46,858 nt of DNA, taken from the IMG/VR virus record IMGVR_UViG_3300048835_000195, positions 1 through 46,858 of that record; one strand, written 5' to 3'. A program made the translations under genes and the position numbers. Under the pieces are notes generated by a model. It searched no databases. It saw only the letters and a list, made by a program, of their open reading frames with translations, and had not been told where the DNA came from. Below are positions 39,299 through 40,465 of this stretch, one piece after another. Source of the DNA: a virus. Every line of letters starts with the position of its first letter. Within the stretch, counting starts at the first letter, position 1.

Positions 39299-40465
39299 AT
39301 GGCTCGATACCGAAAGGTGAGCGTGCAGATCTGGGGTGATCGAAAGTTCAGGAGGCTGTCAACAGAGGGGGCTCTCGTCTGCTTCCACATTCTGACGCAC
39401 CCCAACATGACATCCATTGGGGCAATGCGCGGGACCGTCGCCGGCCTCGCGTCAGAAATCCCTGAGACGATCAGCCCGGAAGGGTATGCCAAAGGCTTCG
39501 AGGAAGGCTTGCGGGAAGGCTTATGGGAAGCCTCCACAGAGGCCCCCCTGATCGCTGTCCCGAATTTCCTGAAGCACAACAAGCCGGAGAGCCCGAACGT
39601 CGTCAGATCCTGGGCTGCAATCGTGGACACGCTTCCGGAATGCTCTCTCCGAGACATTCATTTCCAACGAGTTAAAGCCTTTGCGGAAGGCTTGGGCAAA
39701 GGCTTTCGGGAAGCCTTACCGGAAGCCTTCCGGGAACCCTTGCCGAAGGGTATGCCTAATCCCGAGCCCGAACCCGAACAGGAACCCGAACAGGAGCACA
39801 AACAAGAGCGCCACGCCGCACCGCCAAACGCCCCCGCCGCGCCGCCAGCGGAAAACCGTGTGTGTGCGTCTGGGCTGAAAGCACGATTCGAGCAATTCTG
39901 GGCCGAATACCCGAGCAAGAAGGCCAAGCCGAAGGCGTGGGAGGTATGGGAGGAGCTCGCCCCGGATGACGCCCTGCTGGCCGTGATGCTCGAAGCGATC
40001 GCCCTGCAGAAGACCTGCAACCAGTGGCGCCGGGGCGTGATTCCAAACCCCGACACATGGCTCCGAGAACGCCGCTGGGAGGACCAGCCGGCCGAGTCGC
40101 CAGGCCCCGGCCGGGAGGGGAAGCCCGCGCCACCCGCCGATCCGCCCCGCGGCTTTAAGCGCCCAGCCGTGCACCTTCCGAGTCAGCCGCCGCCCAAGAT
40201 CCCGGAGGCTGCCCGGGAACGGGCCGGCGAGTGGGAAGTCGTTCGCGAGCGGCTGGCCGCGACGGTCGACACCGAGAGCTTCGACACGTGGATCGAACCG
40301 GCGCGGTGCCTCGGGCGGACCGACCGAGAGATCTGGCTGGAAGCGCCGAGCGTGTTCATCCGCAACTGGCTGGCAAACAACTTTGACGAGGCCATCGTTC
40401 AAGCCTCGGGAGCGCGACGGGTGCATTTCCTGGTCGCTGAGATTGCGGAGGAGGTCGAAGCGTAA
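39299..40465 (+). CDS. Replication initiator with C-terminal DnaA domain-I-like module
   Basis: A 388-residue protein. The start (YRKVSVQIWGDRKFRRLSTEGALVCFHILTHPNMTSIGAM, residues about 4-43) is a winged-helix replication initiator pattern. Residues about 64-80 and 125-155 are four-residue repeats (KGF, EGL, REAL types) encoded by iterons. Residues about 195-265 (FEQFWAEYPSKKAKPKAWEVWEEL... PDTWLRERRWED) match a common phage replication domain. Residues about 312-388 align with DnaA domain I (WEVVRERLAATVDTESFDTWIEP, LEAPSVFIRNWLANNFDEAI), which in DnaA contacts DnaB helicase. No ATPase domain follows. It probably starts replication and recruits host helicase; the recruitment is inference. 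Confidence 0.75.
   Translation: MARYRKVSVQIWGDRKFRRLSTEGALVCFHILTHPNMTSIGAMRGTVAGLASEIPETISPEGYAKGFEEGLREGLWEASTEAPLIAVPNFLKHNKPESPNVVRSWAAIVDTLPECSLRDIHFQRVKAFAEGLGKGFREALPEAFREPLPKGMPNPEPEPEQEPEQEHKQERHAAPPNAPAAPPAENRVCASGLKARFEQFWAEYPSKKAKPKAWEVWEELAPDDALLAVMLEAIALQKTCNQWRRGVIPNPDTWLRERRWEDQPAESPGPGREGKPAPPADPPRGFKRPAVHLPSQPPPKIPEAARERAGEWEVVRERLAATVDTESFDTWIEPARCLGRTDREIWLEAPSVFIRNWLANNFDEAIVQASGARRVHFLVAEIAEEVEA
39492..39535. repeat. Iteron cluster 1 (12-bp phase) in initiator gene
   Basis: AAGGCTT occurs at 39492, 39504 and 39516, exactly 12 bases apart, followed by a degenerate copy (AAGCCTCC at 39528). The phase equals four codons, so it also gives a four-residue protein repeat. Candidate initiator-binding sites of the origin. 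Confidence 0.7.
39675..39758. repeat. ori: Iteron cluster 2 (12-bp phase) in initiator gene, candidate origin
   Basis: AAGSCTT-type heptamers occur at 39675, 39687, 39699, 39711 and 39723, with degenerate members at 39735 (AACCCTT) and 39747 (AAGGGTA), all at exact 12-base steps. The heptamer is nearly palindromic, so both strand orientations alternate. In lambda the origin iterons also lie in the initiator gene O. Origin function is inferred. Confidence 0.7.

Follow-up and report, generated by a model that had tools for sequence, protein, structure and literature searches.

Two clusters of 12-bp-phased short sites inside a phage initiator gene are probable iterons and mark a probable replication origin

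Two rows of short sites spaced 12 bp apart within the replication initiator gene of a phage are most likely the landing sites of the initiator itself and the replication origin, and many related phages repeat this arrangement with site sequences that can replace one another. We consider it very probable that both clusters are iterons in the phage's own initiator gene, bound by its N-terminal winged-helix domain, and that the region is a probable origin of replication. The parts of this reading differ in strength: comparison with relatives gives good support to the iteron status of the arrays, analogy with known systems suggests origin activity, and binding by the initiator, origin opening and helicase recruitment are steps that we infer. 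The sites lie in an IMG/VR record of 46,858 bp (analysed whole, and called the window below), which codes for a tyrosine-type integrase, a RecT-like annealing protein, exonucleases, a ParB-like protein, an endonuclease-like protein, the initiator, a DUF5131 protein, a terminase and a portal, and which therefore resembles a temperate tailed phage.

The initiator ORF (39299-40465, + strand, 388 aa) encodes, in this order, an N-terminal winged-helix domain, a repeat-rich linker, a central initiator-like domain and a C-terminal DnaA domain-I-like segment. Eight exact copies of AAGSCTT are found in it, distributed over two putative iteron clusters (no strand assigned). Cluster 1 (39480-39534, residues 61-78) has three exact copies (39492, 39504 and 39516) between two degenerate ones (39480, AAGGGTA, and 39528, AAGCCTC), while cluster 2 (39675-39752) has five exact copies (39675, 39687, 39699, 39711 and 39723) followed by two degenerate ones (39735, AACCCTT, and 39746, AAGGGTA). 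All array steps are of 12 bp except the last one (39735 to 39746), which is of 11 bp, and the array as a whole spans 39480-39752. An earlier sequence-only reading of this DNA had described two 12-bp-stepped clusters, with three and five exact heptamers, inside the initiator's own coding sequence; both the positions and the location within the gene were confirmed, although the degenerate copy at 39480 had been overlooked, as had the shorter last step. The heptamer is a pseudo-palindrome: AAGGCTT (with a Gly codon) and AAGCCTT (with an Ala codon) are reverse complements, and are therefore one and the same double-stranded site.

The density of these sites goes far beyond what composition or coding would give. 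The whole window has 15 copies of AAGSCTT (eight of them in the initiator gene) where 3.2 are expected, none of 100 shuffles reaching 15, and the six 12-bp-spaced pairs present in the 46.9-kb record are all within the initiator gene. Whether synonymous sites keep the heptamer better than the protein demands, a question raised by the earlier reading, has a clear answer: in 20,000 synonymous shuffles of the gene the mean was 1.05 copies and the maximum six, never eight, and with codons drawn from the other genes of the phage (5,000 trials) the mean was 0.62, with no trial reaching eight. The array codons are those that the phage avoids elsewhere, namely GAA, even though the other genes favour GAG (130 versus 328), and the leucine codons TTA and TTG, which account for only 31 of 527 leucines in the rest of the phage.

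The gene product belongs with the O/DnaD-like phage initiators and has a winged helix. Its N-terminal part matches the PHROG profiles phrog_25711 (E 1.1e-23, residues 1-147) and phrog_1701 (a DnaD-like helicase loader; E 1.3e-13, residues 1-205), which are also matched by 84 and 82 of the 87 aligned relatives, respectively, and these profile matches place it, by sequence, in the PHROG initiator family. The middle part, with the central initiator-like domain at residues 160-288, matches phrog_9474 and phrog_270 (residues 153-288), both of replication initiation, with E of ~1e-15. The O-like phrog_345 matches 14/87 relatives and does not match the window protein at 1e-5. In the Pfam scan of the window protein, DnaA_N alone was above the cut-off, with no match to a curated phage replication O family, and the RepA_N domain was absent from the Pfam scans of both the window protein and its relatives. 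An AF2 model is confident for residues 1-140 (pLDDT mostly 93-98) and has the winged-helix order (helix 22-32, strand 42-44, helix 47-53, helix 60-73 and, as the wing, strand 84-86). Comparison with solved structures yielded generic winged helices: the best Foldseek match in the PDB had an E of 0.44, Z in the VIA comparison was at most 6.3, and a profile search of PDB sequences returned chance matches only. The RepA_N chains 5kbj, 4pql and 4pt7 were among the weak fold matches, at Z 5.0-5.4, level with other winged helices.

In the mechanism that we propose, the sites would be pseudo-palindromes of 7-9 bp (R-AAGSCTT-Y), one per ~12 bp, to which the N-terminal winged-helix domain would bind, with several protomers side by side on both clusters. 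The resulting nucleoprotein complex would distort or open the adjacent DNA and bring in a helicase, and it is this opening and recruitment by protomers loaded on the clusters that would make the region a probable origin. In this phage the helicase might be host DnaB, perhaps reached through the C-terminal DnaA domain-I-like segment (40232-40402, + strand, residues 312-368; Pfam PF11638, E 1.9e-12), which is present in only 2/87 family members. In DnaA itself the N-terminal domain (domain I) contacts DnaB, and by analogy the segment may be a candidate for direct recruitment of the host helicase. Neither a helicase nor a loader gene (DnaB, DnaC or lambda P) was detected in the window, using DnaB and DnaC queries together with PHROG and Pfam scans of selected ORFs; among the relatives, a DnaB-type gene lies downstream in 31/103 and a DnaC-type gene in 7/103. 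The gene downstream of the initiator in the window encodes a DUF5131 protein (phage Gp37/Gp68-type; 40465-41562) whose start coincides with the initiator stop codon; such a gene was detected downstream in 3/103 relatives with enough sequence (the window being among those scanned).

Two features of the window may count against an iteron origin: the GC skew, which is uninformative here, is positive throughout the region, with no minimum at the array, and no marked AT peak, as would be expected of an unwinding element, is seen by the clusters. The latter is also what favours the strongest of the alternatives, in which the initiator does bind the arrays, but these function mainly as an operator or as an incompatibility or titration element (through handcuffing or autoregulation), with strand opening taking place elsewhere. 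Plasmid iterons also set copy number, which is a further point in its favour. However, an origin is a better fit for two sizeable clusters that are separated by 130-240 bp and located far inside the gene, hundreds of bases away from the promoter, and the precedents with intragenic sites are origins, so that we regard this alternative as improbable. Immediately downstream of cluster 2, a T-poor, 6-bp-periodic tract (39757-39812, + strand, PEPEPEQEPEQEHKQE) adjoins it. Most relatives have a tract of this kind right after cluster 2, with differing dipeptide repeats (QE, PE, PD, NS, KQ or T runs), and the family mean of T is 0.07-0.08 from 20 to 60 nt beyond the end of cluster 2, versus 0.15-0.27 elsewhere; AT just before cluster 2 is 0.50-0.53 in the family. 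The window tract is possibly an unwinding-side element or else a disordered linker, and in the family it could be either a linker made by slippage or a DNA element. We make no DNA-level claim for it, because the amino acids of disordered linkers (E, Q, P, K and N) make such tracts poor in T, and T codons are used in one relative (L020, with NSNSNS).

A second alternative attributes the array to the protein, as a four-residue helical or linker repeat of which the DNA periodicity would be a by-product. It draws on the facts that 12 bp are four codons, that the window copies share one frame, and that the resulting [EK][AG][FL]x is plausible as an amphipathic helix, with AF2 helices at the site. 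Besides the synonymous nulls, which fail to give eight copies, the relatives speak against it. The same heptamers occupy all three reading frames in these genes and encode unrelated peptides (EAFREAF, KPSVKPS, NRYPNRS), so that identical DNA gives KPSV, NRYP and others; for cluster 2, the pattern-found genes are distributed over frames 0, 1 and 2 as 141, 86 and 1, with K-P-S-x or K-A-F-x in frame 0 (the majority of motif-found genes) and E-A-F-x in frame 1. The AACSGTT arrays are spread over the three frames as 36/23/22, and a single gene (L066) has AACCGTT copies in all three, with similar cases, in two or three frames, in L083, L086, L011 and L067. Steps of 11 and 23 bp break the codon phase, and in L044 one copy (CAA AGC CTT) is out of frame with its neighbours, with an 11-bp step. 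As DNA sites, AAGGCTT, AAGCCTT and AACCCTT are nearly equivalent, which is why Gly, Ala and Pro swap within one array. Other heptamers (AAGGGTT, AACSGTT, AAACGTT, ATGSCAT) take the same 12-bp lattice in some relatives, and such a class switch covers both clusters of a gene (all AAGGGTT in L047, all ATGSCAT in L060 and L062). Since the frame is free and classes switch on one lattice, protein conservation cannot explain the arrays; the protein-repeat reading, to which we give very little probability, was rejected on the synonymous nulls and the frame changes.

These comparisons show, at the level of sequence, that selection acts on the DNA rather than on the peptide. Within the clusters, 406 of 505 [EKQ][AG][FL] tripeptides are coded by AAGSCTT versus 63.7 expected, while outside them the figure is 10 of 151 versus 8.4 expected, a test that is partly circular because the heptamer itself defined the clusters. 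The array has what an iteron origin calls for in this respect, namely repeated, phased short sites at the initiator gene that are kept by selection on the DNA. Homologues that keep the protein repeat and lose the heptamer, which the earlier reading had named as evidence against itself, are the opposite of what was seen, the phased heptamer being kept while frame and peptide changed. Its further proposal, that the DNA signal and the protein linker are shaped together as a four-codon repeat, stands in so far as codons are shared with the sites, but cluster 1 lies in a predicted structured helix and not in a linker, and the four-codon repeat is not fixed, given that the frame varies among relatives and that their steps can be of 11 or 23 bp. 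With one DNA signal running through three frames and several peptides, the family allows the constraints on the DNA to be told apart from those on the protein, as in a natural experiment.

By protein-guided searching we located relatives at 42 sites in viral contigs and 13 in bacterial genomes, and they include MAGs or isolates assigned to Pirellulales, Rhodocyclaceae, Desulfovibrio, Nitrospira and Parasutterella. Of 57 genes that were identified from protein similarity and not from the motif, 34 have a significant phased heptamer array, versus 3/300 control ORFs from the same loci. The other 23 have no significant array under this strict test, which is a point against an iteron origin, and several of them (L054, L058, L072) carry other short motifs in 12-bp phase that the strict test misses. 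In the family, 12 bp is by far the commonest site spacing (followed by 24, 11 and 23), and two clusters are the rule, usually with 2-3 copies and then 3-5, separated by 130-240 bp.

The association also holds in the opposite direction. We scanned IMG/VR with DNA only (three heptamers at 12-bp steps, no protein reference) and scored the arrays by whether they fell in an ORF with the initiator N-terminal domain. This was so for 85/118 AAGSCTT arrays (among the matches listed), 44/80 AACSGTT arrays, 45/69 AAGGGTT arrays and 4/14 ATGSCAT arrays, and for none of the 28 arrays of AGASTCT, a composition-matched scrambled palindrome scanned as a control. On these scans, the link between phased sites and this initiator family is near-exclusive. 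Looking for 12-bp-phased pseudo-palindromic heptamers within an initiator gene may consequently serve as a sequence-only rule for locating a probable origin and its cognate site, in a class of temperate-phage initiators that is very common and uncharacterised. Among the matches listed, 33/120 arrays lay outside initiators, and most of these reflected peptide repeats of unrelated proteins or fell in uncharacterised stretches. Such false positives include L099 (3317-4864), L101, L116 and L164, whose proteins have no relation to the initiator and consist in part of long tandem repeats of four residues (for example SVWASVGD, KPSAKPSA, ACPKACPK), in which AAGSCTT is a chance of coding; a broad DNA pattern for FLKHNKP likewise gave mostly unrelated matches. 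Many of the AAGGGTT matches are, by our impression from the sequences, initiators resembling those of actinobacterial phages. The remaining alternative, that the ParB-like protein encoded ~0.6 kb upstream of the initiator in this phage (37047-38702; Pfam ParB_N 3e-17) uses the arrays as a centromere-like partition site, is hardly credible and was rejected as a general explanation, given that the arrays go with the initiator gene and that a ParB was detectable upstream in only 3/83 array-bearing loci with at least 1.8 kb of upstream sequence (using two ParB queries, which divergent ParBs could escape).

The location of cluster 1 suggests how the iterons and their reader might be connected. With its degenerate copies, it coincides in the AF2 model with the predicted helix 60-73 (codons 39476-39517, + strand) and the turn after it, and cluster 2 covers the last helix of the winged-helix domain and the first part of the linker. 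The same holds for cluster 1 of a divergent homologue, L160, where it (residues 72-82) is within the equivalent helix (71-83); cluster 2 of L160, in another frame, runs from the end of a helix into a disordered linker. From the winged-helix topology of the model, we infer that helix 60-73 (alpha3) is the helix that would read the sites. It is then possible, although less likely than not, that the two form a linked unit, in which the iterons encode the helix that reads them, a class change rewrites the helix and vice versa, and self-locking, mutually compatible replicon classes (AAGSCTT, AAGGGTT, AACSGTT, AACGTT, ATGSCAT) switch together. Outside the repeats, residue 98 (39590-39592 in the window) is Ser in 83/88 AAGSCTT genes, Asn in 14/14 genes of the AAGGGTT, AACCGTT, AAACGTT, AAACCTT, AAGGATT and AAGACTT classes, and Asn in 37/42 additions of the AACSGTT class. 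This pattern is suggestive of S98 as a candidate site-specificity residue; in a phylogenetic test the covariation of S98 with class had only four well-supported independent pairs (median p 0.25). The tree of classes and frames has at least 15 class changes and at least 11 frame changes, counts that lean high because only 8/115 branches are well supported. The idea that the recognition helix and the site specificity evolve together, as a linked unit, becomes directly testable, and the naturally swapped initiator/site pairs are material for studying site choice by winged-helix initiators and the means by which phage replicons remain compatible.

Several known systems have comparable arrangements. 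The lambda O initiator binds inverted-repeat iterons in the middle of its own gene, and in Stx phages extra iterons lengthen the protein (PMC7466680). The window's sites are likewise inside the initiator's own gene, and the comparative evidence supports the earlier reading of them as lambda-O-like iterons at the DNA level. Nevertheless, lambda has a single group of four (or six) iterons with an AT-rich region adjacent, each iteron being an imperfect inverted repeat of 19 bp, whereas the window's sites, well short of ~19 bp, have 7-9 bp at a 12-bp pitch in two clusters, one of them inside codons of the DNA-binding domain, which lacks a Pfam match to a curated family. In SPP1, the oriL repeats are within gene 38, which encodes the replisome organiser gp38 (PMC6316719), so that here too a phage initiator gene contains repeats, but SPP1 has an AT-rich unwinding element, a second origin and a phage-encoded loader and helicase, and neither a loader nor a helicase gene was detected in the window. 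The pSK41 rep gene has its Rep boxes in a central position, and the linker that they encode is dispensable (PMC5703833); such RepA_N initiators share the N-terminal winged helix and the sites within the gene, and differ from the window protein, which lacks a RepA_N Pfam match, in sites and C-terminal parts, the fold match being no better than for many other winged helices. In Gram-negative PICI replicons, two iteron sets flank a presumed melting region (PMC6092414), but these iterons are in the ori after the rep gene, outside the coding sequence. For lambda O, SPP1 gene 38 and pSK41 rep, origins within the initiator gene are established, and the window probably works in the same way. We did not file it under any of the three types: compared with lambda iterons, its sites are much shorter and follow each other more closely, and the Pfam scans gave neither an O nor a RepA_N match. 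What appears to set it apart from these precedents, judging from the sequences and the model, is the combination of 7-9 bp sites at a 12-bp pitch, two clusters, switching classes and a cluster 1 in the predicted recognition-helix codons.

In the open-access literature we found no report of AAGCCTT arrays or of intragenic iterons in this initiator family, and where AAGCCTT does occur, in oligonucleotides of PMC8965321, it does so by coincidence. Two annotated O-like initiators, of Citrobacter phage Chris1 (L008, 1447-1980) and of phage vB_Apl-pPE4 (L009), have TAAGG/CCTTA-type repeats partly in 12-bp phase; in the Chris1 and pPE4 relatives these repeats fall below the strict array test. They are possibly another site class, of enterobacterial hosts. 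Some lie within the first codons of the O-like initiator genes, and a near relative (L210) is carried by the E. coli plasmid p727A3-47K.
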